NCBI GenBank assembly: GCA_001769215.1
Contig: MEOL01000014.1
Coordinates: 1 to 64,000, forward strand
Source of the DNA: Bacteroidetes bacterium GWF2_41_31
GTDB lineage: Bacteria > Bacteroidota > Bacteroidia > Bacteroidales > F082
Direction: 5' to 3'
DNA length: 64,000 nt
The notes beneath the pieces were generated by a model. The model had not been told where the DNA came from, made no database searches, and worked only from the letters and a program-made list of their open reading frames with translations. The position numbers and the translations under genes were made by a program. Every line of letters begins with the position of its first letter. Positions within the stretch are counted from its first letter, which is position 1. This document shows, piece after piece, positions 1-29,304 of the stretch.

Positions 1-212
1 GTTAATACAGTAAGATATTTTAAGTAAGAATGTTAAAAACTTATGAGAAAATTATTTGCTTTAACCATAGAATACCGGCAGGTAGGTATCCCCCAGGAAT
101 GATTATCTCCATTTTAATACATTAATCTAATATACAGGATTTTACAAAAAGGTGTCATTGGTAGACCTGTTCGAAATACTCATGTTCCGATGCTTCTGTT
201 TACAATACTTTT

Positions 213-512
213 TCATGTCACTCTTACTTTTTGACACATCCACCACATCAATAGTCCACGGGCGACCATGAACAGGTTGAGTGCGAACCACAAGGCGTTA
301 TTGCCCCAACTATTATCGGTAAGGTGGTATGCGGGGAGAAAAATAACCAGTGAAGAAACGATCATGGCATTCCGCATTTGTTTGGAAGCGGTGACGCCGA
401 CAAAAATACCGTCCCAAATCAACCATCCCAGAAGGGGAACGGTGATATTGGTTACAATACCGGGTACCGCCAGCTTAAGTATACTTTCATAGATACTTCC
501 GTGAAAGACCAC
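213..512 (-). pseudogene. MATE-family efflux protein remnant: N-terminal segment fused in frame to C-terminal segment
   Basis: LAVPGIVTNITVPLLG resembles the MATE/DinF N-terminus and WDGIFVGVTASKQMRNAM...WGNNALWFALNLFMVARG the C-terminus. Only 99 aa versus ~440 expected. GTG start directly after the cysH stop. Confidence 0.7.
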
Positions 513-1220: not shown

Positions 1221-1319
1221 TTTTATGATTTTAGGCAAAAATAGTGTTTTCCTGAAAAAGAATACCAACCGATTTTACGGATTGATTTTGACAATAGCCT
1301 ACTTTTGCGCCAAAAAAAT

Positions 1320-2180: not shown

Positions 2181-2392
2181 GCAGGAAATACTGCCCTAGG
2201 ATATTATTTCACCCCTGATTTACCGGCTTCATTATTATTTTTGAAGCATAACCAAACTCAGTAAGCGCTTTTTAATTTTTTTTATCATTTACTACATAGC
2301 AAGTACCGAAAGAAGGTATCCGAATTAAAAATGCTAACTATTAATAAAGAACAAAAATTCTATTATGCACATGTACATGTGCTTCTTATTAA

Positions 2393-2417
2393 TATATTTG
2401 CACAAACACATGTGCAA
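2393..2417 (+). promoter_or_regulatory. TATATTTG -7-like box plus inverted repeat TTGCACA-N6-TGTGCAA overlapping the start codon of the next gene
   Basis: TATATTTG at 2393-2400; palindrome 2398-2417; further perfect 16-bp palindrome GCACATGTACATGTGC at 2367-2382. Confidence 0.55.
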
Positions 2418-3610: not shown

Positions 3611-3626
3611 TTTTTAATTTTATATT

Positions 3627-6581
3627 TCACCCTGCCCTGGGATCCCCCTTCACTCCTAATTTCGCCAGCTTTATCACTTCTACCGATGCATAACCAAACT
3701 CCGAAACTACCTTGCCCAGAATCAGATAAACGCCATGTCCGCGAAAGGGATAGTTCCTGAGTGAATCGGGAAAGTGTGTGGTATCGAAAAACTCACAACT
3801 GGCATCGGTAAAGGTGCCGAAATGCATGAGCTCGCCTTTGATGGTTTTCACATATTTAATGGTGACCAGCAAACCCACCATCCGCACAACAGTACCTACC
3901 CTGTTGTCCAGTTCACAAGCCATAATTTCACCCCGGAAGGAGGTGTTAAGCAAATCGAAATAGCTCATGGTAAGCGGAAAACCCAACAATTCTATCTCGT
4001 CGTAGGCATCTTCCAACGGGTTATACTCCAGGGTCGGGAGTTGAAACTGTTTACTTCTGCTCTCGAACAGCCGCAGGTTTTTCGGGACAGGCTTGGTGCT
4101 TTTCTGAAACAGGTGCGCCTCCCACAGCAGTTGTGCCTTGCTTTTTCCGGTAAACCGGAAAGCGCCAATACGGATTAACAAAATCAACTGCTCCATGCCG
4201 GGATTCACACGCCGTATCAAATCCTCCAGATCGGTAAAGGGTCCATTCTGCACGCGTTCGTCAAGCATTTTCCTGGTGAACTTGGTTTCAAGCCTGGCCA
4301 CATGGATAAATCCAGTAAAAATATCCTTTCCGGTAATGGAAGTCTTTTCGTAACTGCGGTTTACACAAGGCAGATGCAAATTCCCGCCCTGGCGACGCGC
4401 CTCATAAAAATACACCCAGGTATGGTAAAAACCGCCAAAATTGTTGATCACCGCCACCTGAAACTCCAGCGGAAAATAGGCTTTCAGGTACAGGCTCTGA
4501 AAACTCTCCACCGCATACGAAGCCGAGTGGGCCTTGGAAAACGAATACCCGGCAAAGCTCTCAATCTGCCTCCACACTTCACGTGTGATCTCCTCAGGAA
4601 TTCCACGCTCACGGCAATTGTTAAAAAACTTATCGATGATGTTCTGAAACTCACTCTTCGACCTGAACTTACCGCTCATGGCGCGGCGCAGCACATCGGC
4701 ATCACCCAGATCGAGTCCTGCAAAATGATGGCACACCTTCAGCACATCTTCCTGATAAACCATCACGCCAAAGGTTTCCTCCAGTTGGTCCTTCATCACC
4801 GGATGCAGATAGCGCACACTTTCGGGATGATGAAAACGCAGAATATACTCACGCATCATGCCCGAACGTGCCACTCCCGGACGGATGATGGAGCTGGCAG
4901 CCACCAGCGTAAGGTAATTGTCGCAACGCAGTTTTTTGAGCAGCCCGCGCATGGCCGGGCTTTCGATATAAAAACAACCGTTGGTTTCGGCCTTCCTCAA
5001 CTGATCGCGTACTTTGGGATCATGTTTAAATTTCTCCACCTGGTGGACATCCACTTCGATGTCGCGGTTGGCCCGGATGATGTCCACAGCCTCTTTGATG
5101 TGGCCAATGCCCCGCTGGCTGAGGATATCGATCTTTTCAAAGCCAATGGATTCGGCCACGTACATATCCCACTGCGTAGTTGGAAATCCTTTGGGAGGCA
5201 GATCGAGGGCGGTGTAGGCCGTGATGGGTTCTTCGGAAATGAGGATACCACCGGCGTGTATGCTGCGTTGGTTGGGAAAATCTGTCATCATCAACGCGAT
5301 GGAATGGATGTGGCGGGTGAGTTCGCTCTTGCCCACTTCCTTCATGGGATTGGCCGTCAGGGCATCAATCTCGCCTTTGGGCAAACCATGAACTTTTCCC
5401 AACTCACGGTAAATGGATTTCCCTTTAAAAGTAACTGAGGTTCCCAGAAAAGCTGTGTGCTTGCGGCCATAACGCTTAAAAATGTACTCTTGTACCTCTT
5501 CCCGGTCTTTCCATGAATAGTCAATATCAAAATCGGGCGGACTGGTGCGCTTGGGATTGAGAAACCGCTCAAAATATAAATCCAGCTCAATTGGATCCAC
5601 ATCGGTTATTTTAAGACAGTATGCCACCATGCTGTTGGCACCACTGCCCCGCCCCACATGATAGTATCCACGCGACATGGAGTACCGGATGATATCCCAG
5701 GTGATAAGAAAATAAGCCGAAAACCCCAGGTGATGAATGATTTCAAGTTCGCCATGCACCCGCTTCAATGCTGTTATATTGCTTGGTTTGTATCGGTATT
5801 TGAAGCCATCCAACGCTAACTTTTCAAGCAGCACCCGGTCATCTTGCAGGTTTCCGGTAAAGGTTTTCTTGTTTTTAATGCTTTGATAATCAAACTCGAA
5901 GGAACAATTATCAAGCAGCTGCCGGGTATTTTTTATCAGTTGAGGATAAGCCTCAAAGGACTTTTCAAGCGCTTCAGGCGACACAAAAACCTCATCCGAA
6001 GGAGCGTGCATGTGTGGTTTCAGGTGACTTAACAACAGGTTGTGGTCGATGGCCCGAAGATTTTTGTGCAAGTACCAGGAAGCTTCATCGGTAAAGGTAA
6101 CGGGCTGTAATGCCATCATTTTTTCAAGTGCGCGGGTTTTTACTTTGATGAGCTGATTTATTTGGGCAGGTTTTACACCGATGTATTCATGAGCGAGCAA
6201 CTCTCTTTCAGGATTGAAGCCATAAGGGTAGATCAAAAAAACCTCCGAGAACTCCTGCTGTAAGCTGCTCATGTTGCCTTTGGGGAATTCTTTCTCTTTC
6301 AGGTTAATGGCGGTCATGAAATCGTTGAGTTCCATAAAGCCTTTGTTATTGCGGGCGATCCCAATAAACAGCAACTTATCGCCATCGCGGAACTCCATCC
6401 CTGCCACTGGTTTGATACCTGCTTCTTGCGCCAGCCGCGCAAAATCCAGTATCCCCGAAGAGTTGTTGATGTCGGTGAGGGCCATCGACTTCACACCCAA
6501 TGCGGTTGCCTGCTCTAACAGTTGTTCGATGGAACAGGTGCCGTAGCGCAGACTGTAGTAGGAGTGTGTGTTAAGGTACAT
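3627..6581 (-). CDS. DnaE-like C-family DNA polymerase (accessory/error-prone type, 984 aa)
   Basis: PHP-like N-terminus, PPDFDIDYSW catalytic motif, HAGGILIS, GVMVYQEDVL, FSKAHSASYA, C-terminal OB-fold (VVRMVGLLVTIKYVKTIKGELMHFGTFTD). Located next to dinB. Confidence 0.9.
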   Translation of the reverse strand: MYLNTHSYYSLRYGTCSIEQLLEQATALGVKSMALTDINNSSGILDFARLAQEAGIKPVAGMEFRDGDKLLFIGIARNNKGFMELNDFMTAINLKEKEFPKGNMSSLQQEFSEVFLIYPYGFNPERELLAHEYIGVKPAQINQLIKVKTRALEKMMALQPVTFTDEASWYLHKNLRAIDHNLLLSHLKPHMHAPSDEVFVSPEALEKSFEAYPQLIKNTRQLLDNCSFEFDYQSIKNKKTFTGNLQDDRVLLEKLALDGFKYRYKPSNITALKRVHGELEIIHHLGFSAYFLITWDIIRYSMSRGYYHVGRGSGANSMVAYCLKITDVDPIELDLYFERFLNPKRTSPPDFDIDYSWKDREEVQEYIFKRYGRKHTAFLGTSVTFKGKSIYRELGKVHGLPKGEIDALTANPMKEVGKSELTRHIHSIALMMTDFPNQRSIHAGGILISEEPITAYTALDLPPKGFPTTQWDMYVAESIGFEKIDILSQRGIGHIKEAVDIIRANRDIEVDVHQVEKFKHDPKVRDQLRKAETNGCFYIESPAMRGLLKKLRCDNYLTLVAASSIIRPGVARSGMMREYILRFHHPESVRYLHPVMKDQLEETFGVMVYQEDVLKVCHHFAGLDLGDADVLRRAMSGKFRSKSEFQNIIDKFFNNCRERGIPEEITREVWRQIESFAGYSFSKAHSASYAVESFQSLYLKAYFPLEFQVAVINNFGGFYHTWVYFYEARRQGGNLHLPCVNRSYEKTSITGKDIFTGFIHVARLETKFTRKMLDERVQNGPFTDLEDLIRRVNPGMEQLILLIRIGAFRFTGKSKAQLLWEAHLFQKSTKPVPKNLRLFESRSKQFQLPTLEYNPLEDAYDEIELLGFPLTMSYFDLLNTSFRGEIMACELDNRVGTVVRMVGLLVTIKYVKTIKGELMHFGTFTDASCEFFDTTHFPDSLRNYPFRGHGVYLILGKVVSEFGYASVEVIKLAKLGVKGDPRAG

Positions 6582-6598
6582 GGTTGTGGATTTAAAAA

Positions 6599-6627
6599 CT
6601 TTTCCAAAGCTTTAAACTTTGGAAAAG
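6599..6627 (-). terminator. intercistronic hairpin between Y-family polymerase and DnaE-like gene, 11-bp stem with 7-nt loop followed by TTTTT on the minus strand
   Basis: CTTTTCCAAAG-CTTTAAA-CTTTGGAAAAG read directly. Confidence 0.5.
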
Positions 6628-6634
6628 CTCTGAC

Positions 6635-7798
6635 TTATACCGAAGGCGGGCGACAACTGATCCCCCGCAGAATGGACTTGGCCCCATAGCGCAGGCGAAT
6701 CTGGTCCATGGCCTTGTACAAATCCGGCATATGCGGGTCTTCGTCAAACAGATCGAGTTGTTGGTTTCCACCCACCAACTGACTAAACCGAACGCCAATC
6801 AGTCGGATGAGCATCCTCCGGGTATAAAGCCGTTCGAAAAGGCTCAGTGCCGTTTTAATCAGCACATGATCGAAAGAGGTGTACGGCAACTGCTGTTGCA
6901 GGGTATGGGTATCGAAGTTGGAATACCTGATTTTAACCGTTACACAACCGGTAAGAAACTGCTTCTTCCTCAGTTCAAAAGAAATTTTATCTACCATCGA
7001 AATCAAGAGGTTACGCAAAAGCACCACATCGGTGGTATCCTGATTAAAGGTATGCTCGGTGCTGACGGATTTCCGTTCGGAATATTGCACCACCGGCGTG
7101 GGATCGATGCCATTGGCCTTGTTCCACACCACCAATCCGTTTTTGCCCATCACCTGAATCATCATCTCCGGCGGAATCATGCTGAGGGTCTGGATGGTGG
7201 AAACGCCCATGGAGCGAAGCAACCTGAAACTTTTGTTGCCGATCATGGGGATTTTACGGATAGATAACGGAAACATAAACGGCTTTACCTGCTGTTGCGG
7301 CACATGGATGCCCCCATTGGGTTTGGCCTGTCCGGTGGCCATCTTCGATACGGTTTTGTTCACCGAAAGGCCAAAGGAAATGGGCAATCCTGTATTTTTG
7401 ATGATGCGTTCGCGCAACTCCTGTGTCCACTTGAGTGAGCCAAAAAAGCGGTCCATCCCGGTGATATCCAGATAATGCTCATCGATGGAAGCCTTTTCGT
7501 ACACGGGAGCCTGCTCGGCGATGATCTCCGTTACCAAACGCGATTGTTTGGAATACTGCTCCATGTCGCCGCGGATAAACACCGCATCGCTGCACAGCTG
7601 TTTGGCCATCCGCATGGGCATGGCCGAGTGCACCCCAAAACGACGGGCTTCGTAGCTGCATCCGGCCACCACTCCCCTGTCGGACATGCCCCCGATGATC
7701 ACCGGCTTGCCCATAAGCTCCGAGTTATGCAGCCGTTCCACCGACACAAAAAACGTGTCGAGATCAAAATGTGCAATGGTTCTGTTATTTATTTCCAT
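6635..7798 (-). CDS. dinB: Y-family DNA polymerase (Pol IV/DinB-like)
   Basis: HFDLDTFFVSVERL, GVVAGCSYEARRFGV, SIDEHYLDIT, SFGLSVNKTVSKMAT. C-terminal QLDLF beta-clamp-binding motif. Start placed at MEINNR. Confidence 0.92.
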   Translation of the reverse strand: MEINNRTIAHFDLDTFFVSVERLHNSELMGKPVIIGGMSDRGVVAGCSYEARRFGVHSAMPMRMAKQLCSDAVFIRGDMEQYSKQSRLVTEIIAEQAPVYEKASIDEHYLDITGMDRFFGSLKWTQELRERIIKNTGLPISFGLSVNKTVSKMATGQAKPNGGIHVPQQQVKPFMFPLSIRKIPMIGNKSFRLLRSMGVSTIQTLSMIPPEMMIQVMGKNGLVVWNKANGIDPTPVVQYSERKSVSTEHTFNQDTTDVVLLRNLLISMVDKISFELRKKQFLTGCVTVKIRYSNFDTHTLQQQLPYTSFDHVLIKTALSLFERLYTRRMLIRLIGVRFSQLVGGNQQLDLFDEDPHMPDLYKAMDQIRLRYGAKSILRGISCRPPSV

Positions 7799-7815
7799 TT
7801 TTTTAGTCAGAATAC

Positions 7816-7845
7816 TTGACAATTAAAATTAATGTTGTACTTTTG
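7816..7845 (+). promoter_or_regulatory. Bacteroidota-type promoter TTG-N19-TACTTTTG driving the S24 regulator
   Basis: TTG at 7816-7818, TACTTTTG at 7838-7845. Confidence 0.65.
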
Positions 7846-7883
7846 ATTATTATTTAATCATTTATTTGATTGCAATATAATCA
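7844..7883. promoter_or_regulatory. two tandem 17-bp palindromic operator candidates
   Basis: TGATTA-TTATT-TAATCA at 7844-7860 (perfect 6-bp arms) and TGATT-GCAATAT-AATCA at 7867-7883. Confidence 0.6.
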
Positions 7884-7942
7884 TTTTTTTTAACTTTTGT
7901 CATCGTTAGCTAAGAAATTTTTAAACTAAAAACAGTTTCATC

Positions 7943-8743
7943 ATGTATTTCAACAGCAACATCAAACTATTGCGCAAGCGCCGCAGCCGCACCCAGGACG
8001 AGGTAGCCTTTACACTCAACATGAAGCGCCCCACCCTGAGCGGGTACGAGAATGGGGTGGGGACACCCAACCTCGGAGCACTGATGCAGTTCTCCGAATA
8101 TTTTGGCATTGCCATCGACACCCTGGTCAAAGTCAACCTGAGTACCCTCTCCGAGAGTCAGTTTCATCAGTTGGAGAATGGTTACGACGTATTTATCAAA
8201 GGGAGCAAACTAAGGGTGCTGGCTACGACTGTAGACGAAAACAACGAGGAAAACATCGAGTTGGTAAACGAAAAAGCGCGGGCAGGCTATGCCGTAGGCT
8301 ATGCCGATCCTGAGTACATCCGCATACTGCCTACCTTTAAACTTCCGTTTTTATCGAAACAGAAAAAATACCGCACCTTTCAGATCAGTGGCGACTCTAT
8401 GCTGCCCATCCCCGACGGTTCGTATGTTACGGGAGAATATATCCAGGACTGGAATTTCATCCGAAACCACCATGCCTACATCGTTCTCACCCACGAAGAA
8501 GGCGTTGTATTTAAGGTGGTGGAGAACAACATCAAAACCACCGGCTCGCTGAAACTTCACTCGCTCAATCCCCATTACGATCCATTCGATCTGGGTGTAA
8601 ACCAGGTAAAGGAAATATGGAAATTTGTAAACTACATCAGTTCGCAAGTACCCGAACCCAACAAAGAAAAGGACCAGATGGCCGAAGAATTGTTGCTCCT
8701 TAAAAAACAGGTGCAGGCCATCCAAATGAAGTTGAACCTGTAA
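7943..8743 (+). CDS. LexA-like XRE HTH / S24 peptidase-domain transcriptional regulator
   Basis: N-terminal HTH (LRKRRSRTQDEVAFTLNMKRPTLSGYENG), ARAGYAVGYADP putative Ala-Gly cleavage site, ISGDSM catalytic Ser, VVFKVV catalytic Lys. Confidence 0.9.
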   Translation: MYFNSNIKLLRKRRSRTQDEVAFTLNMKRPTLSGYENGVGTPNLGALMQFSEYFGIAIDTLVKVNLSTLSESQFHQLENGYDVFIKGSKLRVLATTVDENNEENIELVNEKARAGYAVGYADPEYIRILPTFKLPFLSKQKKYRTFQISGDSMLPIPDGSYVTGEYIQDWNFIRNHHAYIVLTHEEGVVFKVVENNIKTTGSLKLHSLNPHYDPFDLGVNQVKEIWKFVNYISSQVPEPNKEKDQMAEELLLLKKQVQAIQMKLNL

Positions 8744-8755
8744 GCTGTATTCTTC

Positions 8756-10108
8756 ATGAGTCAGTATGCCATTGTCGATATTGAGACCACCGGGTTAAGT
8801 CCGTCGACTGAAAAAATTACCGAAATCGCTATCCTGATACACGATGGGACGAAGGTAACAGAGACTTTTTCCACCCTCATCAATCCGGAGATGAAGATTC
8901 CCTACCGCATCACCCAGATGACAGGAATCAACAACCGGATGGTGGAAGATGCCCCCAAATTTTATGAGGTGGCAAAAAAGATTGTGGAGATTACCGAAGA
9001 CAGAATTATCGTAGGTCACAACGTTCGTTTCGATTACAGCTTTATACGCAACGAATACAAAAGCCTGGGCTATGAATACCAGAGGCAAACACTTGATACC
9101 ATTAAACTTTGCCGGAAACTCATTCCCGGCCAACCATCTTATGGCCTGGGCAATCTTTGCAAATCGTTAAAAATAGACAACCACGCCCGCCACCGTGCCG
9201 AAGGCGATGCCATGGCTACCACCAGGTTGTTTGAACTGCTGCTCAGCATTGAAGGTGAACCCGAAAAAGCAAACCTCACCGGAATGCAGTCGTCGTTAGG
9301 AAAATCACTCATCGAAAACCTGCCAAAAGAACCGGGTGTGTATTATTTTTATAATAAAGACAATGAACTGATCTACGTGGGGAAATCCATAAATATCCAC
9401 GACCGGATTCTGTCGCACCTGAACAACAACCTGAATAAAAAGGCAGTCGAGATGCGCAATTCCATTACCGACGTTCAATTCACCCTGACGGGAAATGAGT
9501 TGGTGGCGCTGTTGTTAGAATCATCCGAAATAAAAAAACACCAGCCATTATACAACCGCGCCCAACGCAGGACATTCTATAACCAGGGATTGTACTCGTT
9601 TTTTGATGACGAAGGTTACCTGAATTTAAAAATTACCCGGGTCATCGCTTCACTCAACCCGCTGTACACCTACAGTTCGGTAAATGAGGGCAGGAACCAT
9701 GTGGAGATGCTGATGGAAGAATACGGACTTTGTCAGAAACTGTGCGGCTTGTACGATACCCAGGGACCTTGTTTCCATTACCAGATTCACCAATGTAAAG
9801 GTGCCTGTGTGGGCGAAGAAACCAAAGAAAGCTACAATTTGCGGGTTCAGCAGGCACTGGATAATTACCATTTTGAACACCAGAACTTTTTATTGATCAC
9901 GGCTGGCCGCCAGCCACATGAAAAAGCCATTGTAAAAGTAGAGAACGGACGGTACAAGGGATTTGGCTACGCGGACGAAACCTGTGACCTGAACAATCCG
10001 GATCTGTTACGCGAATGCATCACTTCCTATTCTGACAACAAGGAAGTGCGGCGGATTATAAAAAGTCACTTGCGGAACAACCCTGACGGGAAAATCCTGC
10101 TTTTTTAA
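8756..10108 (+). CDS. DnaQ-like 3'-5' exonuclease fused to GIY-YIG (UvrC/Cho-like) nuclease domain
   Basis: YAIVDIETTGLSP, HNVRFDYSFIRNE, HRAEGDA exonuclease motifs; LPKEPGVYYFYNKDNELIYVGKSINIHDRILSHL GIY-YIG motif. Confidence 0.9.
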   Translation: MSQYAIVDIETTGLSPSTEKITEIAILIHDGTKVTETFSTLINPEMKIPYRITQMTGINNRMVEDAPKFYEVAKKIVEITEDRIIVGHNVRFDYSFIRNEYKSLGYEYQRQTLDTIKLCRKLIPGQPSYGLGNLCKSLKIDNHARHRAEGDAMATTRLFELLLSIEGEPEKANLTGMQSSLGKSLIENLPKEPGVYYFYNKDNELIYVGKSINIHDRILSHLNNNLNKKAVEMRNSITDVQFTLTGNELVALLLESSEIKKHQPLYNRAQRRTFYNQGLYSFFDDEGYLNLKITRVIASLNPLYTYSSVNEGRNHVEMLMEEYGLCQKLCGLYDTQGPCFHYQIHQCKGACVGEETKESYNLRVQQALDNYHFEHQNFLLITAGRQPHEKAIVKVENGRYKGFGYADETCDLNNPDLLRECITSYSDNKEVRRIIKSHLRNNPDGKILLF

Positions 10109-10213
10109 GGCTGTGTTACCTTCTATTTTACAACCCTTATTAGCATAAACGCAGCAGTGTTCACATACTATATATCTGGTTTTGTGGACTTAAAAAAATA
10201 TTAACTTCAAGGC

Positions 10214-10243
10214 TTGTCAGTTTTCAAAAAGATATTACTTTTG
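10214..10243 (+). promoter_or_regulatory. Bacteroidota promoter for tRNA-Ser, TTG-N19-TACTTTTG
   Basis: TTG 10214-10216; TACTTTTG 10236-10243; tRNA begins at 10249. Confidence 0.6.
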
Positions 10244-10248
10244 CCCAC

Positions 10249-10336
10249 GGAGAGTTGGCAGAGTGGTCGATTGCGGCGGTCTTGAAAACCGTTGACCCGC
10301 AAGGGTCCGGGGGTTCGAATCCCTCATTCTCCGCCA
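10249..10336 (+). tRNA. tRNA-Ser (anticodon TGA), CCA encoded
   Basis: Acceptor stem GGAGAGT/ATTCTCC, anticodon loop CTTGAAA, long variable arm, GGTTCGAATCC T-arm. Confidence 0.93.
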
Positions 10337-10338
10337 CC

Positions 10339-10371
10339 AGATTCCACGATACTTTCGTGGAATCTTTTTTT
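10339..10371 (+). terminator. Rho-independent terminator after tRNA-Ser
   Basis: AGATTCCACGA-TACTT-TCGTGGAATCT followed by a T run. Confidence 0.9.
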
Positions 10372-10383
10372 ACATAGGGCTAA

Positions 10384-12371: not shown

Positions 12372-14390
12372 ATGACAAACGCAATAATTTTAATGTATGT
12401 TTCATGGGCAACAACCATTCTGGCTGTGGTACTCATGTGTTTTATTCCTTCTGCAAAAAAATCAATCCTGGCAATCGTTACGGTGATCATCAATGCCATT
12501 GTAACAAGCATTCCTGCGATCCAGGCGTTGGGAGGCGCCACAAGTGATTTTTCCTTTTACGCGGGAACTTTTTTAGGCGATGTACCCATCCGGATTGATG
12601 GCCTTTCTGCATGGTTCATCCTGATCATCAATTTTACTTCCGTAACCGGGATTATCTATGGCACCGGTTATTTAAAAGCTTATAAAAACACGGCTTCTAA
12701 ACTCAGTTTACACTGGGTGTTATTTATCCTTTTTCATCTTTCAATGGTTTGGGTAACGCTTTTACAAAATGGGTTTGCCTTTCTCATTGCATGGGAAATT
12801 ATGTCGCTTACCTCGATGCTGCTCGTCATTTTTGATGGCCATAATACAAAAACCTTGCAAGCGGGTATTAATTACTTTGTCCAGATGCACATCAGCATTG
12901 TGTTTTTAACCATTGGATTTCTATGGGTTTACCTTGAAACAGGATCCTTTGGTTTTGATGCGTTTCAAACATTTTTTGCCTCCAACAACAACCTCTGGTT
13001 GTTTATCATCTTTTTTGTTGGATTTGGGCTTAAAGCAGGATTTATCCCGCTGCACAGCTGGTTGCCCCTTGCACACCCTGCCGCGCCTTCGCATGTGTCA
13101 GGTGTGATGTCGGGGGTGATTGTAAAGTTGGGTATTTATGGGTTGATCCGGGTGATTTCATATGTGCAATCTGATTTTATACTGTTGGGCGAAATCATTA
13201 TTTCCATTTCCATACTTACCGGATTATACGGCATCCTCAATGCAGCTATTCACCGCGATTTCAAAAAAATGCTGGCCTATTGCACCATCGAAAACATAGG
13301 AATTATAGGCATTGGCATTGGTCTGGGCATGATTGGTCTGGGAAGCAATTCGCCATTGCTTTATTATCTTGGTTTTGGAGGAGCGCTCCTGCATGTATTG
13401 AACCATTCATTATTTAAATCGATGCTCTTTTTTGCTGCGGGTTCGGTTTATCAGCAAACCCATACACGCGACATGGAGCGTTTGGGCGGATTGATAAAAA
13501 ACATGCCTCAAACCGCCATCATTTTTCTCATTGGAGCCATCGCCATCGCGGGAATCCCACCATTCAACGGGTTTGTTTCAGAATTTGTAATTTACAGCGG
13601 ACTGATAGAAGGATTAAAGTCGGATAACATCAACCTGATCAGCTTGTTGATCCTGTCGTTCGCGGGTCTTAGCCTGATTGGTGGCCTGTCGATTCTAACC
13701 TTCACCAAATCGTTTGGAACCCTGTTTTTAGGGAACCAACGCGAAACCTTGCCTCACCAACCTCATGAAGTGTCGCGTATCATGCTTTTCCCTCAATATC
13801 TTATCATAGCGGTTATGCTCAGTATAGCCTTTGTGCCACAGTGGTACCTGGCCATCGTGGGAAATCTTTTATCAGGAATGGCACTGGTTTCCCATCCAAT
13901 TGCTGAGGGATTTGAAGTCTCTTCCCTGGCTGTTTATTCAAAAACGTTGAGTCATATCAGTTTATATTCACTGCTCTTTATTGCAGTAATTGGTCTCTTT
14001 TGGATGATCAGACATTACTCACAAAAAAGCAAATCCATTATCGTGGGAAATACCTGGGGTTGCGCTTATGTGGCACCAAATAACCGGATGCAATACACCG
14101 GAAAATCCTACTCAAAACCGCTGGGTAAAATGTTCAGCTTTATGCTGATCGAAAAGAAAAGATACCCGGAAATCATGGCCGGGGAAATATTTCCTCAACC
14201 CAGAAAATACTCGTCGCACTACCTGGATTTTATTGAACATTATTTAATCGACAATGCAATCCGGCTCCTTTTGACGATTGTCAACTACTTTAAATTTATT
14301 CAAAACGGACGTGTACAATCCTATGTGATGTATGGCATCGTTTTTATACTTACCATCTTCATCCTGACACTGTTAAACCTTGTAAAATGA
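12372..14390 (+). CDS. HyfB/NuoL-like proton-conducting antiporter subunit, copy 1
   Basis: LIAWEIMSLTSM, GFGLKAGFIPLHSWLPLAHPAAPSHVSGVMSGVIVKLGIYG. Start placed at MTNAII; the upstream ORF extension looks non-coding. Confidence 0.88.
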   Translation: MTNAIILMYVSWATTILAVVLMCFIPSAKKSILAIVTVIINAIVTSIPAIQALGGATSDFSFYAGTFLGDVPIRIDGLSAWFILIINFTSVTGIIYGTGYLKAYKNTASKLSLHWVLFILFHLSMVWVTLLQNGFAFLIAWEIMSLTSMLLVIFDGHNTKTLQAGINYFVQMHISIVFLTIGFLWVYLETGSFGFDAFQTFFASNNNLWLFIIFFVGFGLKAGFIPLHSWLPLAHPAAPSHVSGVMSGVIVKLGIYGLIRVISYVQSDFILLGEIIISISILTGLYGILNAAIHRDFKKMLAYCTIENIGIIGIGIGLGMIGLGSNSPLLYYLGFGGALLHVLNHSLFKSMLFFAAGSVYQQTHTRDMERLGGLIKNMPQTAIIFLIGAIAIAGIPPFNGFVSEFVIYSGLIEGLKSDNINLISLLILSFAGLSLIGGLSILTFTKSFGTLFLGNQRETLPHQPHEVSRIMLFPQYLIIAVMLSIAFVPQWYLAIVGNLLSGMALVSHPIAEGFEVSSLAVYSKTLSHISLYSLLFIAVIGLFWMIRHYSQKSKSIIVGNTWGCAYVAPNNRMQYTGKSYSKPLGKMFSFMLIEKKRYPEIMAGEIFPQPRKYSSHYLDFIEHYLIDNAIRLLLTIVNYFKFIQNGRVQSYVMYGIVFILTIFILTLLNLVK

Positions 14391-16411
14391 CCATGATACC
14401 GGCCTTTTTAGCCATCGGTTTTTTTGTAATACTTACCATTCCTTTTCTAGGAGTAAAATACAAGGGAATACTGGTGTATATGGCTATCGTAGTCAATGCC
14501 GGCCTTACAGGATATCTGGCTATACAAGCATTGATGGGTCTGCCATTCGAAATTATTTTTCCAGGCAACATGGTCACCGGGGCCATTGCCCTTCGCCTGG
14601 ATGCCTTATCCGCCTGGTTTATATTGATCATTAATTTTATTTTTATTACCGGTGGGTTTTATGGCTTATTTTATATGAAAGCTTATCAAAACCAAAGTAA
14701 AAACCTCAGTCTTCATGGTATTGCTTTTGTTTTATTGTATAGTGCCCTCATCAGCCTGACGGTTATCCAAAATGGGATGGTGTTTCTGATTGCCTGGGAA
14801 ATTATGGCGCTTACTGCTTTTATCAGTGTGATTTTTGAACATGAGAAAATGGCAACCATCAAGGCGGGATTCAACTATCTCCTCCAGTCGCATGTGGCCA
14901 TCATCTTCCTGATGCTTGGATTTATGTGGGCGGCTTACAAAACCGGAAGTTATGATTTTCAGGTGTTGAGTAACTACACGGCAGGTGAGAAAGGCGCTGC
15001 CACCGTCATTCTGTTTACCACTTTTTTTGTTGGATTTGCCTTAAAGGCAGGTTTTGTTCCTTTTCATACCTGGCTTCCCTATGCCCATCCGGCGGCACCG
15101 GCACACATTTCAGGAATCATGTCGGGAGTTATGATTAAAATAGGAATATTTGGCATCCTGCGCATGATGTTGGTCATTAAACCGGACTTCGCCATCATTG
15201 GTTACATTATTTTAGTGGTATCAGTTATTTCCGGTTTGTATGGCGTGATGTTGGCCATCGTTCAGCACAACCTGAAAAGGCTGCTGGCCTACCACAGTAT
15301 CGAGAACATTGGCATTATCGGTATGGGTATTGGCTTGGGCAGTATTGGTTTAGGTACAGGCAACCTGGTTCTGGCTACCCTTGGATTTGCCGCCGCGTTG
15401 CTGCACGTCTGGAACCATGCCCTTTTCAAGTCGCTTTTATTTTTTACAGCGGGAAATGTATACCAGGCTACCCATACATTGAACATAGAGCAATTGGGTG
15501 GGTTGATCAAAAAGATGCCACAAACAGCATTCCTTTTCCTGATAGCTGCCATCGCTATCTCCGGACTTCCACCATTCAACGGCTTTATTTCAGAATTTAT
15601 TTTGTACAGCGGGTTGTACCACTGGTTGCTGGATGCCAGATTATTATCCTTGGTAGCGATTGTATTCGCGATACTCGGGCTGGTGATGATTGGTGGCCTG
15701 GCGATGTTGTGCTTCACCAAAGCCTTTGGCGTGGTTTTTTTAGGAAACGCGCGGCAAACATTTAAACACGAAGTCCATGAAGTGTCGTTTCAACAACTGA
15801 TTCCACTTTATTTGATTGCTTTTTTTATTGTCGCTATCGGGTTCTTCCCCGGTTTTTTCCTGAAACTGCTTATCGAACCTGTATCTTTACTTGCCGGAAA
15901 CAGTGGGGTTGCCGGTATTTTTGAGACCAATACCATGCAGACCATGCAGCAAATCAGTTGGGCGGCCTGGGGCTTCATCGCGCTGATTTCTGTTATCTTC
16001 ATGGTCAGGAAACTGGTATCGCGCAAACACACCATTGCAATTGAATCCACCTGGGGTTGTGGTTACGTGAAACCTACGGCCAATATGCAATATACGGCCA
16101 GTTCGTTTATCCGCTCCTATACTAAACTTTTCAAACCCTTGTTGTTATCGTATAAAAAAGAAAAGAATATCCAGGGTATCTTCCCCACCGATGGCTTTTT
16201 CGAGTCGCATCCTTACGATAAACTGGAAAAGTGGCTCTATGATACTCCCATCATGGAATTCAAATCTTTCATGAGCCGCTTTATCTTTCTTCAAAATGGA
16301 CGGCTTCAGTTTTATATTTTGTACGGGATTATTTTCATTATTTCAATTATATGTATTCCAATTGTTTACGATATGTTCATCCACCTTATAGGTTACTTTA
16401 AACAACTATAA
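14387..16411 (+). CDS. HyfB/NuoL-like proton-conducting antiporter subunit, copy 2
   Basis: LIAWEIMALTAFISVIFEH, GFALKAGFVPFHTWLPYAHPAAPAHISGIMSGVMIKIGIFG. Overlaps the upstream gene by 4 nt. Confidence 0.9.
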   Translation: MTMIPAFLAIGFFVILTIPFLGVKYKGILVYMAIVVNAGLTGYLAIQALMGLPFEIIFPGNMVTGAIALRLDALSAWFILIINFIFITGGFYGLFYMKAYQNQSKNLSLHGIAFVLLYSALISLTVIQNGMVFLIAWEIMALTAFISVIFEHEKMATIKAGFNYLLQSHVAIIFLMLGFMWAAYKTGSYDFQVLSNYTAGEKGAATVILFTTFFVGFALKAGFVPFHTWLPYAHPAAPAHISGIMSGVMIKIGIFGILRMMLVIKPDFAIIGYIILVVSVISGLYGVMLAIVQHNLKRLLAYHSIENIGIIGMGIGLGSIGLGTGNLVLATLGFAAALLHVWNHALFKSLLFFTAGNVYQATHTLNIEQLGGLIKKMPQTAFLFLIAAIAISGLPPFNGFISEFILYSGLYHWLLDARLLSLVAIVFAILGLVMIGGLAMLCFTKAFGVVFLGNARQTFKHEVHEVSFQQLIPLYLIAFFIVAIGFFPGFFLKLLIEPVSLLAGNSGVAGIFETNTMQTMQQISWAAWGFIALISVIFMVRKLVSRKHTIAIESTWGCGYVKPTANMQYTASSFIRSYTKLFKPLLLSYKKEKNIQGIFPTDGFFESHPYDKLEKWLYDTPIMEFKSFMSRFIFLQNGRLQFYILYGIIFIISIICIPIVYDMFIHLIGYFKQL

Positions 16412-16413
16412 TC

Positions 16414-17319
16414 ATGTTGAGTTTTATTTTAATACTCATCGCTGGTGCATTCTTCACAGGCATCATAATCCGGACGAAGAGCGTAGCCTCCGGGCGCAAA
16501 GGGCCAGGCATACTGCAACCAATAAATGATGTAGTGCGACTTTTTAAGAAAGGAGCAGTATACAGCGGGACCACCAGCTTTATTTTTCAAATGGCACCTA
16601 CCATTTATTTTTCATCGGTTGTCATGGCGATGATGTTGATTCCTTTTGGCCAATCGAAAGGGCTTATCAGTTTTAATGGCGACTTTGTGTTTTTCGCTTA
16701 TGTGTTGGCATTGGGCAAATTTTTCAGCATCATATCTGCCATGGATACAGGCAGCAGTTTCGAGGGGATGGGAGCCAGCCGTGAATCTCTTTACTCCTTG
16801 CTTGCCGAGCCCGCCTTCTTCATCCTGATGGGTTCGTTTGCCTTACTTACCGGCTACACTTCATTCCAGGAAATGTTCGCGGCTCTGCATCTCGGATCTT
16901 ACATTAGTTATGCCATTGCGATCCTGGCCACCTTTGTGCTGGTGATGATCGCGATGATCGAAAACAGCCGCATGCCCATCGATGACCCAAAAACTCACCT
17001 TGAACTTACGATGATCCATGAGGTCATGATTCTCGACAACAGCGGTTTCGATCTGGGATTGATACTCTCGGCAGGTTATCTAAAATTCGCCTTATACGGA
17101 GCTATCATCGTCAATCTTTTTATTGGAATGGTTCCCTATCCCTATGCCATACCCCTGTTTTTTGTCATTCAGTTTTTGCTGGCTATCATCATCGGGCTCA
17201 TCGAATCGTTCATCGCGCGTTTCAGGATGAGCCACAATCCCCAGTTTATTTTCGCGCTTACCTCGGTGAGTTTGCTGATATTCTTTGGTGTGCTGTTGGT
17301 ATTGGGAAAATTTATTTAA
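16414..17319 (+). CDS. HyfC/HycD/NuoH-like membrane subunit
   Basis: RKGPGILQPINDVVRLFKK, MIENSRMPIDDPKTHLELTMIHEVMILD. Confidence 0.92.
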   Translation: MLSFILILIAGAFFTGIIIRTKSVASGRKGPGILQPINDVVRLFKKGAVYSGTTSFIFQMAPTIYFSSVVMAMMLIPFGQSKGLISFNGDFVFFAYVLALGKFFSIISAMDTGSSFEGMGASRESLYSLLAEPAFFILMGSFALLTGYTSFQEMFAALHLGSYISYAIAILATFVLVMIAMIENSRMPIDDPKTHLELTMIHEVMILDNSGFDLGLILSAGYLKFALYGAIIVNLFIGMVPYPYAIPLFFVIQFLLAIIIGLIESFIARFRMSHNPQFIFALTSVSLLIFFGVLLVLGKFI

Positions 17320-17336
17320 TTTAAAATCCGTGTAAA

Positions 17337-17969
17337 ATGATAGATGTACTGTTAATCACCCTTCTGATCACTCTTTTTTACATGGCCATTGCCAATCGGT
17401 TGATGACCTATATCAAAGTCCTGGCGATTCAAGGCGTATTGCTTTTCATAGTTGCATTTGTTCAACTTGAGGAAATAAACCCATTGAACCTGGGATTTAT
17501 TCTGTTGGAAACCATTGTGGTAAAAGCCATCGTCGTTCCCTTTTTTCTGGTATACATCCTCCGGAAAAACAACATCACGCGCGAAGCGGAGCCCTTTGTG
17601 TCCAATTTCTTTTCGCTCATCATCACTACCCTCATCGTGGTGCTTACCGTTTTGTTGTCGAATACCATACAGGAAGCCCGCCTGGATAAAATCTTTTTTA
17701 TCGTTGCCATGTCGACCCTGTTTTTCGGACTGTACCTGATCGCCACCAGGCGCAAAATCATTACCCATGTGATGGGATACCTGGTGATTGAAAATGGCAT
17801 ATTTGTGCTATCACTGGCAGTGGGAAACGAAATGCCCATGCTGGTAAACCTGGGAATTATGCTGGATATTTTTGCCAGTGTATTGATTTTGGGCATATTC
17901 CTGAATAAGATTGGTGATGTTTTTAAAGATGTAGATGTGCAACAACTCAATAGTTTAAAAGACGTTTAA
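17337..17969 (+). CDS. HyfE-like (NuoK-like) membrane subunit
   Basis: Hydrophobic multi-TM protein, FILLETIVVKAIVVPFFL, VIENGIFVLSLAVG, position in the hyf-like operon. Confidence 0.85.
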   Translation: MIDVLLITLLITLFYMAIANRLMTYIKVLAIQGVLLFIVAFVQLEEINPLNLGFILLETIVVKAIVVPFFLVYILRKNNITREAEPFVSNFFSLIITTLIVVLTVLLSNTIQEARLDKIFFIVAMSTLFFGLYLIATRRKIITHVMGYLVIENGIFVLSLAVGNEMPMLVNLGIMLDIFASVLILGIFLNKIGDVFKDVDVQQLNSLKDV

Positions 17970-17981
17970 AACCGAATTTTC

Positions 17982-19409
17982 ATGATACTAACCTACCTGA
18001 TCGGAGCACTGATTATTGCCGTTGGAATATCTGTAAACAGGAATAAATGGGTCAATTATAGCCTGGCGGGAATCTTCCTTCTCCTGCAGTGGATGTTCAC
18101 CATATACGCTTGCTTCCATCTCAACGAAACAGACCTTGGCTACTTTACCTATGATTCACTTGGCATTCTGCTGCTGATTACCCTGAGCATCATCGCGATT
18201 CCTGCCATGATCCATAGCAAGATATACGTAGAGAATCACCACGAAAGCGGAGCCGTCAGGGCCATTTATTTTCTTTCCATGGTTGGTTTGATCACAGCCA
18301 TCGGGGCAGGATACCTGGCCAACCACATCGCAGTAACCTGGATATTTACTGAAATCACCACGCTGAGTGCTTCGGCTCTTATTTATCACCACCGCAACAA
18401 ACTGGCGCTCGAAGGAACATGGAAATATGTCTTCATTGGTGCTATCAGCATCACCTTTGTTTTTATAGGCATCTTGTTTTTAAGTCTCTCCATTCAGCAG
18501 TCAGGAACAGGTCACATGTCGTATGCCAGCTTACTAGAAAATGCCCACCTGATGAACCCTTTCTGGTTGCGGTTAGCCTTTCTGTTTATTTTCACGGGCT
18601 ACACGGTAAAACTAGGGTTAGTTCCCATGTTTACAGCTGGTGTGGATGCCAAAGACAAAGCCCCGGCACCGGCAGGGGCACTGCTTTCGAGCGTTTTGAT
18701 GAACCTGGGTTTCGTGGGGGTTTTTCGTATGTACATCATCATGGCCAACACCCCTTTGCATCATTGGGCCAATCTGGTCATCGGCATCTCGGCTTTTTTG
18801 TCGCTGTTTGTGGCTACTGTATACATGATCAAGGTAAAAAACATCAAAAGGATGTTGGCCTACTCAAGCATCGAACACATGGGTTTGGTGATGCTGGGTA
18901 TTGCAGCGGGAGGCATTGGCTACTATGCTGCCATTTTGCACATCATATTACATGCTTTTGTAAAATCGAGTTTATTTTTTCAATACAACCAGTTGTACCG
19001 CGTGTTTCAAAGCAAAAGCATCTACCTGGTCGGAAATTATTTTAAATACAACACCACGGGCGCCATGGTACTTTTGCTTGGATTTATCAGTGCCGCGGCC
19101 ATGCCACCTTCGGGATTGTTTGTGAGTGAGTTTCTCATTTTCCGCTCTATGTTCGAGGCGCATCAATTGGTACTTCTGATCGCGGTACTGTTACTGCTCA
19201 CCATGATTATCTGGGCCTTTGGAAAGAATATTCTCAAGATATTGTTTATTCCGCCTGTTGGCTTTAACGAAAACGATGTGCCCCGAATCAGTCCATGGGA
19301 GTCGGTAACACAATTTGTGCTGCTGGCTCTCGCAGTCTATCTTGGTTTAAACCCACCGGTTGAATTTGTGCATCTTATCGAGGAAAGTCTCATTCTTTTA
19401 CCCCACTGA
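17982..19409 (+). CDS. HyfF-like antiporter subunit
   Basis: TVKLGLVPMFTAGVDAKDKAPAPAGALLSSVLMNLGF, KRMLAYSSIEHMGLV. Confidence 0.88.
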   Translation: MILTYLIGALIIAVGISVNRNKWVNYSLAGIFLLLQWMFTIYACFHLNETDLGYFTYDSLGILLLITLSIIAIPAMIHSKIYVENHHESGAVRAIYFLSMVGLITAIGAGYLANHIAVTWIFTEITTLSASALIYHHRNKLALEGTWKYVFIGAISITFVFIGILFLSLSIQQSGTGHMSYASLLENAHLMNPFWLRLAFLFIFTGYTVKLGLVPMFTAGVDAKDKAPAPAGALLSSVLMNLGFVGVFRMYIIMANTPLHHWANLVIGISAFLSLFVATVYMIKVKNIKRMLAYSSIEHMGLVMLGIAAGGIGYYAAILHIILHAFVKSSLFFQYNQLYRVFQSKSIYLVGNYFKYNTTGAMVLLLGFISAAAMPPSGLFVSEFLIFRSMFEAHQLVLLIAVLLLLTMIIWAFGKNILKILFIPPVGFNENDVPRISPWESVTQFVLLALAVYLGLNPPVEFVHLIEESLILLPH

Positions 19410-19410
19410 C

Positions 19411-20910
19411 ATGAACTACATTCGTATCACCAACCACCAGACCATACCTGTTTCAGATATCCCTGAACTGGATTATAAATCATTTTTTGAACTGAATACA
19501 GGATTTATCATCGATCACCCCGAACGACATTGTGTGAATTATTTCGGTTATCACGAAGACAATCACATCAAACTGATTTGTTGTATTGCCGATGATGAAA
19601 CGCACGAGATATATGTTTCTTCGTGTTGCACAGCCATTCAATCAAAGTTGCAGGCTTTTACTTCTAAACTTTTGTGTTTTGAAAAGTTCGAACGTGAGAT
19701 ACATGAAAACTTTGGGCTCGATTTCATCGATCATCCCTGGCTGAAACCAGTGAGGTACGCATTTAACCGGGCTGACAAAACCAAGACCATCGCCAATTAT
19801 CCGTTTTTCAAAATCGAAGGTGAGGAATTACATGAAGTCGGGGTTGGTCCCATTCACGCCGGGGTGATTGAGCCGGGGCATTTCAGATTTATCTGCAATG
19901 GCGAACAGATTTTACACCTCGAAATACAACTGGGTTACCAACACCGGGGAATTGAATCACTTTTTCTGAAGAAGAAATCGATTCTGGAGCGGGCAACCCT
20001 TGCCGAAAACATTGCAGGTGATACGGTGGTTGGACATACTTCCGCATTTTCGTATCTATGGGAAAGTTTGTGTGGCTATCAGGCCTCACGGGACATGCAT
20101 TTTTCGCGCATCCTGGCGCTCGAAATGGAACGAATGGCCATTCATACGGGTGATTTAAGTGCCGTTTGCACGGACATAGCCTATCAGCTGGGTAGTTCCG
20201 TGTACGGACGACTCAGGACTCCTCTGATTAACTTTATGCAGGAATGGGGCGGCAACCGGTTGTCAAAAGGCCTCATCCGGCCCGGACGCGATCAATTTCC
20301 ATTTACCTCCGGTTTGGCAGAAAGAATAAAAAATATTTTTGACGCCTTTGAACCTGATTTTAATGAGATAAGCGATGAATTGCTTAAACTACCCAGTGTT
20401 TTATCAAGACTCGAACGCACCGGTGTGGTTACACCAGCTGATGTTCAGGAAATTGGCGCCGTTGGCATGACTGCCCGGATGGCCGGGATCAATCGTGACA
20501 TCCGTACATCGCATCCATACAGTTTATACCCTGAATTAAACCATGAACCCATTTTAAAGCACCATGGTGATGTGTATTCACGTGTTTTGATCAGAAGACA
20601 GGAAGTGAACCAATCCATGGCATACGTAAGAGATTTGTTAAACCAACTTCCTGAACAGACCACAACCAATACCGAATTGGGTAAGCCAAAGGCGAACTCT
20701 TTTACACTTTCAATGATTGAAGGTTGGCGCGGCGAAATTTGTCATTGTGCCATCACGAATGAAAAAGGAGATCTGGTACTTTACAAAATCAAGGATCCTT
20801 CTTTTCATAACTGGCTTGCATTGGCTCTGTCGGTGAGAAACAACGAGATATCCGATTTTCCCATTTGCAACAAAAGTTTTAACCTTTCATATTCAGGCCA
20901 CGATTTATAA
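19411..20910 (+). CDS. HyfG-like (NuoC-NuoD fusion) hydrogenase-related large subunit lacking NiFe ligands
   Basis: GVGPIHAGVIEPGHFRF, LQLGYQHRGIE; L1 position reads ENIAGDTVVGH; C-terminus reads DFPICNKSFNLSYSGHDL. Confidence 0.88.
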   Translation: MNYIRITNHQTIPVSDIPELDYKSFFELNTGFIIDHPERHCVNYFGYHEDNHIKLICCIADDETHEIYVSSCCTAIQSKLQAFTSKLLCFEKFEREIHENFGLDFIDHPWLKPVRYAFNRADKTKTIANYPFFKIEGEELHEVGVGPIHAGVIEPGHFRFICNGEQILHLEIQLGYQHRGIESLFLKKKSILERATLAENIAGDTVVGHTSAFSYLWESLCGYQASRDMHFSRILALEMERMAIHTGDLSAVCTDIAYQLGSSVYGRLRTPLINFMQEWGGNRLSKGLIRPGRDQFPFTSGLAERIKNIFDAFEPDFNEISDELLKLPSVLSRLERTGVVTPADVQEIGAVGMTARMAGINRDIRTSHPYSLYPELNHEPILKHHGDVYSRVLIRRQEVNQSMAYVRDLLNQLPEQTTTNTELGKPKANSFTLSMIEGWRGEICHCAITNEKGDLVLYKIKDPSFHNWLALALSVRNNEISDFPICNKSFNLSYSGHDL

Positions 20911-20918
20911 AAAGAATT

Positions 20919-21695
20919 ATGTTCGATAACCTCAAAATAGTTTTTCACCAGGGCAAACAGTTTATTCCCGATGTAACCACGGCAAAAGTGCCCGGCATCT
21001 ATCGTGGAAGGCCCATCATCAGTGGTGTACAAGTAAATGAAGCTGAATTACAAGGACTTTGTCCGGCCAATGCCATTGCCACCAAACCTGTTAGCATCGA
21101 TTTGGGCAAATGCACTTTTTGTGGAGAATGTGCCCTCCGTTTCCCGGAAAAAATCACATTTACAACCGACTACAAAATTTCGACCAACGAACGTGAGCGC
21201 CTGATCATTAAAGAAGGAGATGAAAAACCTGTGGAGGTAAATCCTGAAACCGTCAGAAGAGAAATTCACCAGGTTTTTGGACGATCGCTTAAACTCAGGC
21301 AGGTATCTGCCGGTGGTGACAACAGCTGCGAGTGGGAATTGAATGCCGCCATCAATGTGCAGTTCGATATGGGACGGTTTGGGATTGAGTTTGTCGCTTC
21401 ACCCCGCCATGCCGACGGGATTGTGATCACCGGCCCCATCACCGAAAATATGGCAGAACCACTGCGCATTGCATACGACGCCGTTCCCGATCCAAAAATA
21501 ATCGTTCTGGTTGGAACAGATGCCATCAGTGGTGGTTTGTTTGCAGATAGTCCGGCCATCGACCGTGGTTTTCTGGATCAGTATCCCGTTGATTTGTACA
21601 TTCCGGGCAATCCGGCCCACCCACTCACCATTATTAACGGATTGTTGGATTTAACCAGGAAAAAGGAGCTTATTCGTTTAATTCATCCTGTTTAA
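20919..21695 (+). CDS. HyfH-HyfI-like fusion: ferredoxin-like segment plus NuoB-like subunit with degenerate cluster ligands
   Basis: GLCPANAIA...CTFCGECALRFP; SPRHADGIVITGPITENMAEPLRIAYDAVPDPKIIVLVGTDAISGG; VDLYIPGNPAHP. Confidence 0.87.
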   Translation: MFDNLKIVFHQGKQFIPDVTTAKVPGIYRGRPIISGVQVNEAELQGLCPANAIATKPVSIDLGKCTFCGECALRFPEKITFTTDYKISTNERERLIIKEGDEKPVEVNPETVRREIHQVFGRSLKLRQVSAGGDNSCEWELNAAINVQFDMGRFGIEFVASPRHADGIVITGPITENMAEPLRIAYDAVPDPKIIVLVGTDAISGGLFADSPAIDRGFLDQYPVDLYIPGNPAHPLTIINGLLDLTRKKELIRLIHPV

Positions 21696-21774: not shown

Positions 21775-21963
21775 ATGAAATGTTCAGAATTATTTCGACT
21801 TTTAAAAAAAGAAGGCTGGTATCCCATTTCACAAAAAGGATCTCATGTTAAAATGAAACATGATAGCAGAGACGGAATAATCATTTTTCCAAATCACGGA
21901 AGTCAGGAAGTTGGTAAAGGACTTGAAAAGAAAATTCTGAAAGATGCAGGTATTACAATTTAA
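21775..21963 (+). CDS. hicA: HicA-family mRNA interferase toxin
   Basis: MKCSELFRLLKKEGWYPISQKGSHVKMKH...IIFPNHGSQEVGKGLEKKILKDAGI. Confidence 0.88.
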   Translation: MKCSELFRLLKKEGWYPISQKGSHVKMKHDSRDGIIIFPNHGSQEVGKGLEKKILKDAGITI

Positions 21964-21965
21964 CA

Positions 21966-22370
21966 ATGAGGGCCATGAAAAAGTTAAAGAAAAAAATAAA
22001 AATAATTGTGGAGAAGACTAATACCGGGTTTTCTGCATATTCTGATGAATTTCCCATTTTCACAACTGGTAAAACTGTTCCTGAATTACTTTCAAATTCA
22101 TATGAAGCAACTCAAATGTACTTCGAGGACAAGTATGAAATTACCAATGAAAATATAAGATTTGAGATAGATTTTGAGCAGTTTTTTCAATATTACAAAG
22201 TGTTAAATTCAAAATTTCTTGCCGAAAGAATTGGTATGAATCCTACTTTGCTTTCGCAGTACGTTCAGGGACATAAAAAACCTTCTGAGAATCAAACAGA
22301 GAAAATACTTTCGGGAATTCATCAGATCGGCCAGGAATTATCTGAAATGAATTTAATATTTAACAGGTAG
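21966..22370 (+). CDS. hicB: HicB-family antitoxin with C-terminal HTH
   Basis: IVEKTNTGFSAYSDEFPIFTTGKTVPELLSNS followed by LAERIGMNPTLLSQYVQGHKKPSENQTEKI. Confidence 0.82.
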   Translation: MRAMKKLKKKIKIIVEKTNTGFSAYSDEFPIFTTGKTVPELLSNSYEATQMYFEDKYEITNENIRFEIDFEQFFQYYKVLNSKFLAERIGMNPTLLSQYVQGHKKPSENQTEKILSGIHQIGQELSEMNLIFNR

Positions 22371-28669: not shown

Positions 28670-29017
28670 TTATTGGTTTTCAATTATTTTTCTTAAGTCA
28701 ATAGAATTCAGAGGTATATTCTTTTTAGAAATTTCCCAAATCATTTCGTAGTCTATCCCAAAGTATTCGTGTGCTATTAAATTCCTTAATCCAACCATCT
28801 TTTTCCACGGAATTTCAGGATACTTGTTCTTAACTTCTTCAGGGATATTTTTTACGGCTTCACCAATAATTTCAAAGTTTCGGACTATTGCATCAACTAT
28901 TAAGTAGTTCATTTTAAATTCTCTGAAACTCATATCTCCAATATACTCTTCAATTCTTAGCATAGAAGTCAAAATGTCTTCAAGGTAAAAATTGTATTCC
29001 CGCTTTATTGGTGTCAT
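28670..29017 (-). CDS. HEPN-domain HepT-like (DUF86) toxin
   Basis: RX4HXY motif in MVGLRNLIAHEYFGIDYEMIW; adjacent MNT gene. Confidence 0.88.
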   Translation of the reverse strand: MTPIKREYNFYLEDILTSMLRIEEYIGDMSFREFKMNYLIVDAIVRNFEIIGEAVKNIPEEVKNKYPEIPWKKMVGLRNLIAHEYFGIDYEMIWEISKKNIPLNSIDLRKIIENQ

Positions 29018-29304
29018 ACGTATTTTACACTATTTAAAATGATTTGCCGTAGTTGCTCTTTTAATGCCTTCTCCGAAACCAGGTCAACTTTCAATTTTAA
29101 TTCATTTTCTAGTAGGTCCTGGAGGTCAAAAAATTCCCAACCGATTGGCTTCGAGAAATACACTAAAATATCAATGTCTGAGTCAATAGTCTGCTCATTA
29201 CGGGAATATGAACCAAAATACCCAATTCTTTCAACGTTATATTCTTGGCTGAGAATTGGTTTCAACGCCTTAAGTCTGCTTTCTATTTCAACTTGAGTAT
29301 TCAT
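29014..29304 (-). CDS. MntA-like minimal nucleotidyltransferase antitoxin
   Basis: IGYFGSYSRNEQTIDSDIDILVYF (GSX10DXD). Confidence 0.88.
   Translation of the reverse strand: MNTQVEIESRLKALKPILSQEYNVERIGYFGSYSRNEQTIDSDIDILVYFSKPIGWEFFDLQDLLENELKLKVDLVSEKALKEQLRQIILNSVKYV

Follow-up and report, generated by a model that had tools for sequence, protein, structure and literature searches.

A complex I relative in many Bacteroidales lacks NiFe and N2 ligands and is probably an ion transporter that works without conventional redox chemistry

Ehr complexes are defined as group 4 hydrogenase-like operons that encode antiporter-like subunits together with a large subunit devoid of the NiFe-binding cysteines (PMC6349859, PMC7304191), and Mbx and similar hydrogenase-related complexes have been described as ferredoxin-linked oxidoreductases (PMC6349859). 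While Ehr complexes without NiFe ligands are already known, our search of the open-access literature found no report of conserved or recurrent loss of the proximal cluster, N2. In the complex I of Yarrowia, the R121M substitution loses N2 and abolishes quinone reduction, and its authors concluded that true N2-independent quinone reduction does not exist (PMC8042128); against this background, it is unusual to find in nature a homologue that lacks N2 and yet has a complete ion path. How redox chemistry near N2 leads to distant ion pumping is a central open question of complex I, and a conserved natural homologue in which the ion path is intact and acids stand in for N2 allows one to ask directly whether the membrane arm works without this cluster.

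The window analyzed here (the whole stretch of 64,000 nucleotides from Bacteroidetes bacterium GWF2_41_31) carries a seven-gene operon at 12372-21695, the last gene of which encodes the small subunit (Table 1). Almost every locus of sufficient length for a complete operon shows the same gene order, B-B-C-E-F-G-I. Purifying selection acts on all seven genes, with dN/dS values of 0.02-0.14 across the operon and 0.11-0.12 for the small subunit, indicating that the complex is selected as a whole.

Table 1. Genes of the operon and cluster-ligand motifs of the small subunit, in window coordinates
Feature	Position	Strand	Start, length	Basis
HyfB-like antiporter-like subunit 1	12372..14390	+	start codon inferred	sequence match
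HyfB-like antiporter-like subunit 2	14387..16411	+		sequence match
HyfC/NuoH-like subunit	16414..17319	+		sequence match
HyfE/NuoK-like membrane subunit	17337..17969	+		sequence match
HyfF/NuoN-like antiporter-like subunit	17982..19409	+		sequence match
Large subunit, HyfG/HycE/NuoCD-like	19411..20910	+	499 aa	alignment, structure match
Small subunit (ferredoxin-NuoB/HyfI fusion)	20919..21695	+	ATG, 258 aa	ORF reading, alignment
CP...CxxCxxC single-cluster ligand set (C48, C65, C68, C71)	21060..21131	+		alignment
GGDNSC (D134, S136, C137) vs GGCNGC, first two N2 ligands	21312..21329	+		alignment
GTDAISGG (D201) vs GxC third-ligand motif	21513..21536	+		alignment
PGNPAHP (N231; H234) vs PGCPPxP	21603..21623	+		alignment

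Alignment of the small subunit with E. coli HycG, HyfI and NuoB revealed that three of the four N2 ligands have changed from Cys, to D134, D201 and N231, while C137 stays. This agrees with an earlier note on the same DNA, which had reported the loss of three proximal-cluster ligands from an open reading frame that reads as it described. Across 87 Bacteroidota orthologues, D134, S136 and H234 are each present in 87/87, N231 in 86/87 and C137 in 85/87; position 201 is Asp in 83/87 and Glu in 4/87. Among named strains, Breznakibacter xylanolyticus DSM 6779 (L068) has this D/C/D/N form. The note's further inference of conserved loss, not decay, is supported by this fixation and by the low dN/dS values of the operon and the subunit. 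Its statement that one expected Cys remains holds for the studied copy but not strictly for the family, as position 137 is Ala, Asn or Gly in five orthologues of the wider sequence set, so that the last Cys is dispensable, not obligatory. Because D134, D201 and N231 are fixed or nearly so and C137 is dispensable, a conventional N2 cluster appears, on ligand reading, very unlikely in this subunit. His234 occurs too in a sister group with the N2 cysteines and is thus not tied to N2 loss. The AlphaFold model (mean pLDDT 84) has MbhJ (6cfw_J) and HycG (7z0s_G) as its nearest solved folds; its confidence is low at residues ~131-150, and the geometry of the new pocket is therefore not given by the model.

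In the ferredoxin part, C48, C65, C68 and C71 are each Cys in 87/87 Bacteroidota orthologues and make up a full set for exactly one [4Fe-4S] cluster, whereas ligand reading of the alignment found no second [4Fe-4S] set. The orthologue alignment thus backs the ceiling of one FeS cluster that had been predicted from the single copy. From 2[4Fe-4S] folds, we take the retained set to correspond to the N6b-type cluster, which adjoins N2.

The large subunit has lost its metal ligands as well: all four NiFe cysteines are replaced, mainly by A/T, T, S and G, in the 71 sequences compared, and the few exceptions are never Cys. It terminates at ...SYSGHDL, without the C-terminal extension of E. coli HycE, and the quinone-site Tyr region of NuoCD reads NIAGDT. 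The polar motifs GDT, DPSxHNW, NKSF and SYxGHDL are invariant, and Cys454 and Cys456 (509-aa numbering) are specific to the family relative to its N2-containing sisters, except for Cys454 in L176. An AlphaFold model (mean pLDDT 80) matches the HycE fold.

The ion path of the membrane arm is preserved. In HyfB-like subunit 1, the TM5 Glu, TM7 Lys and TM8 Lys are found in 47/47 sequences and the TM12 Glu in 46/47, the remaining one having Lys; in HyfB-like subunit 2, the corresponding Glu/Lys/Lys/Glu series (TM5, TM7, TM8, TM12) is invariant (53/53), as are the TM5 Glu, TM7 Lys and TM12 Glu of the HyfF/NuoN-like subunit (62/62). Along the NuoH-like E-channel, the equivalents of NuoH E157, D213 and E220 are invariant, and that of E228 is Asp. 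The earlier note mentions neither the NiFe loss nor these intact residues, nor that other lineages have lost N2 as well.

Inspection of the flanks of orthologous loci revealed no conserved donor, acceptor or partner enzyme gene beside the operon. A divergent Crp/Fnr-like regulator gene lies upstream of it in 8 loci (for example L043), a possible link to redox or nutrient control. Downstream in the studied window (21775-22370) there is a HicA-like toxin gene (Pfam PF07927; ~21775-21960, + strand), followed in the HicB position by a 134-aa ORF without a Pfam match, and small adjoining ORFs at 28670-29304 (- strand) resemble by eye a nucleotidyltransferase and a HEPN-type partner, a toxin-antitoxin-like arrangement. 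This genome also has a complex I gene cluster whose NuoB has its cysteines intact, NiFe hydrogenase-like genes (types assigned by eye) next to HypD/HypF-like genes, and an RnfC homologue. Cluster assembly is therefore available to this host, and the N2 loss is specific to the Ehr-type complex.

Relatives with complete N2 ligands occur close by. The fused architecture is shared by a sister group found elsewhere in the phylum (L149-L161), whose small subunits retain four N2 cysteines, and in Bacteroidales a large and small subunit pair at 4275-6579 of L212 combines four N2 cysteines with a two-cluster ferredoxin part; no membrane-arm genes were found beside this pair, which forms a stand-alone two-gene locus. 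These four-Cys relatives likely represent the ancestral state of the N2 positions, and with such close relatives the N2-less form of Bacteroidota is best read as a derived loss, not an error. According to the earlier note, orthologues with intact cysteines would point to a sequencing error or a local decayed copy; such orthologues do exist, which fulfils this condition only weakly: they do not show the studied copy to be an error, since ~110 sequences (some genomes possibly counted twice) have the altered set in common.

Most Ehr lineages sampled outside the Bacteroidota N2-less family keep four N2 cysteines, and proteobacterial plasmid Ehr loci have them without a ferredoxin part. N2-less ligand positions were also found in Allomeiothermus silvanus (T/D/E/S), Mycobacterium branderi (N/D/D/A) and the Bacteroidales contig L164 (D/C/D/D). 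In each lineage without N2, two or more of the four former ligand positions are acidic, and the third position is always Asp or Glu; the probability of such a pattern by chance is ~1e-7 given an 11% D+E background, a rough and only indicative value that assumes independent sites. The cases outside Bacteroidota were drawn from a plasmid collection and do not sample phyla systematically. On plasmid pJCM12687 of M. branderi, the hyc-type operon without N2 ligands spans 5254-12693 of L205, to which M. tuberculosis Rv0082-Rv0087, annotated as 'hydrogenase', may be a parallel. A small subunit on a plasmid of Streptomyces sp. NBC_01483 (L210, about 9832-10378) has Arg at the first N2 ligand and keeps the other three cysteines.

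The large-subunit tree forces at least four changes of N2 state on the starred branches, leaving a single origin of the loss unsupported; long branches lead to L204, L205 and L164, and the count of independent losses is therefore provisional. An AU test also spoke against the Bacteroidota N2-less sequences forming one large-subunit clade (p 0.028), the reason being that the large subunit of the Cys-intact L176/L212 groups among them; the tree of small subunits has weak resolution. Replacement of the small-subunit gene at L176/L212 would be one reading of this placement, but L212 is a stand-alone gene pair that has a two-cluster ferredoxin part and lacks neighbouring membrane genes, which leaves this reading without firm support.

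Predicted cluster counts, taken from complete ligand sets, vary across Ehr loci: 3, 2, 1 (ferredoxin-type only), 1 (N2 only) and 0. The last state is represented by L164, where a six-gene complex I-like operon (1-8370) with intact ion-path residues contains no NiFe ligands, N2, ferredoxin domain or CxxCxxC ORF on its 8.4-kb contig, although a ferredoxin gene elsewhere is not excluded. Pending more than one metagenomic contig, L164 is a candidate for a cofactor-free member of the complex I superfamily, as judged from its predicted proteins. Ion-path residues persist in all Ehr cofactor types, some of which vary at TM8 or TM12.

Collectively, we propose that the studied operon encodes an Ehr complex without a catalytic NiFe site and without N2 in which ion translocation involves no redox reaction at the coupling site. 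The composition is observed; mechanism and transport are inferred, and we give this proposal about an even chance of being correct. The main reason to prefer a mechanism without an electron relay at the coupling site is that no electron path is common to all Ehr loci. The three antiporter-like subunits would translocate ions (H+ or Na+/H+) with no redox reaction at the coupling site, and the hydrophilic arm of this Ehr-type ion transporter would no longer relay electrons to it. Where the NuoH-type E-channel begins, the carboxylates that occupy the former N2 pocket may serve as a protonatable or cation-binding group that replaces the N2 charge, and the ferredoxin-type cluster may be structural or act as a redox sensor gating transport. 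A complex I relative in many Bacteroidales thus probably transports ions in the absence of conventional redox chemistry, an inference made without activity, structure or metal data. Three features count against this explanation: the strictly kept [4Fe-4S] ligand set suggests some redox or sensing role, the invariant large-subunit pocket (GDT, DPS, NKS and GHD motifs) might serve as a catalytic site for a substrate not yet identified, and C454 and C456 could bind something.

One alternative is that the complex is still a redox-driven pump, in which electrons pass from ferredoxin or flavodoxin to the remaining cluster and on to an unknown substrate in the vacated N2/NiFe cavity, without N2. The full conservation of the N6b-type ligands and the strong conservation of the large-subunit pocket are compatible with such a route, as are the ferredoxin-linked activity described for related complexes such as Mbx (PMC6349859) and the RnfC homologue and NiFe hydrogenase genes of the host. 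Set against it are the Yarrowia R121M enzyme, which without N2 reduces no quinone (PMC8042128), the absence of a linked donor or acceptor gene, and other Ehr operons that have N2 but no ferredoxin part, or neither, and thus share no electron path. We consider a redox-driven pump unlikely, while regarding it as a serious contender.

The acidic substitutions themselves might instead indicate that Asp/Asp/Asn (plus Ser, His or Cys) binds another metal (Zn, Mn, Fe or Mg), creating a new catalytic or structural site at N2. The recurrence of at least two acidic residues in every N2-less lineage, with its chance of ~1e-7 (rough), and the near invariance of D134, S136, N231 and H234 would fit a metal site. 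H234 is shared with N2-containing sisters, however, the ligand identities vary by lineage (D/C/D/N, D/C/D/D, T/D/E/S, N/D/D/A), and AlphaFold confidence is low around residues 131-150, which together make this reading improbable. It is harder still to sustain an FeS cluster with mostly non-Cys ligands at N2. Asp can stand in for one Cys in some [4Fe-4S] proteins, and one Cys is usually kept here (85/87), but oxygen or amide groups would be needed for three of the four ligands and even the last Cys is missing in five orthologues, so that very little room is left for such a cluster. Sequencing error or local decay, for which only the existence of Cys-intact relatives speaks, is refuted by the ~110 sequences with the altered set, the small-subunit dN/dS and the conserved operon.

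Returning to ion translocation without redox chemistry at the coupling site, a broader proposal is that a branch of the complex I superfamily gave up redox coupling. It would rest on the lack of a cofactor at the coupling site, on L164, with none predicted in its operon, and on the repeated replacement of N2 by carboxylates in independent lineages; we advance it only tentatively, at less than even confidence. Similar genes annotated as NADH dehydrogenase or hydrogenase subunits, possibly including mycobacterial hyc-type loci, may encode neither activity.

Comparison with known systems places the locus among them as follows. E. coli hydrogenase-4 (Hyf) and formate hydrogenlyase (Hyc) share its subunit folds and largely its gene order, with HycE and HycG as close structural matches, but they possess a NiFe site, N2 and a two-cluster ferredoxin subunit, whereas here the HyfH-like and HyfI-like parts are fused and hold one cluster. 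The studied complex accordingly meets neither criterion of group 4 [NiFe] hydrogenases, two NiFe-binding CxxC motifs and a proximal [4Fe-4S] cluster on four small-subunit cysteines, nor that of a 2[4Fe-4S] ferredoxin of the NuoI/HyfH type, which requires two complete ligand sets. Respiratory complex I (NuoB, NuoCD, NuoI core) has a homologous Q-module and membrane arm with conserved TM5 Glu, TM7 Lys and TM12 charged residues, so that its antiporter-like Glu/Lys criterion is met; its NuoB-ligated N2 and NADH module are missing here, and NIAGDT stands at the quinone-site Tyr region. Mbh and Mbx of Pyrococcus also belong to the superfamily and have antiporter-like subunits, and MbhJ, the closest relative of known structure to the small subunit, retains in the alignment the proximal-cluster cysteines where the studied protein has changed. 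The M. branderi hyc locus resembles it in a fused one-cluster ferredoxin-NuoB-like subunit without N2 ligands and differs in its N/D/D/A replacements and distant lineage. Two of the three Ehr criteria are fulfilled, namely a group 4-like large subunit without NiFe-binding cysteines and antiporter-like, NuoH-like and small-subunit genes in one operon; for the third, the coupling of a cytoplasmic reaction to ion translocation, the sequences show conserved ion-path residues. Within Ehr complexes, the family is set apart by fixed Asp/Asp/Asn at N2 and a single ferredoxin-type cluster.
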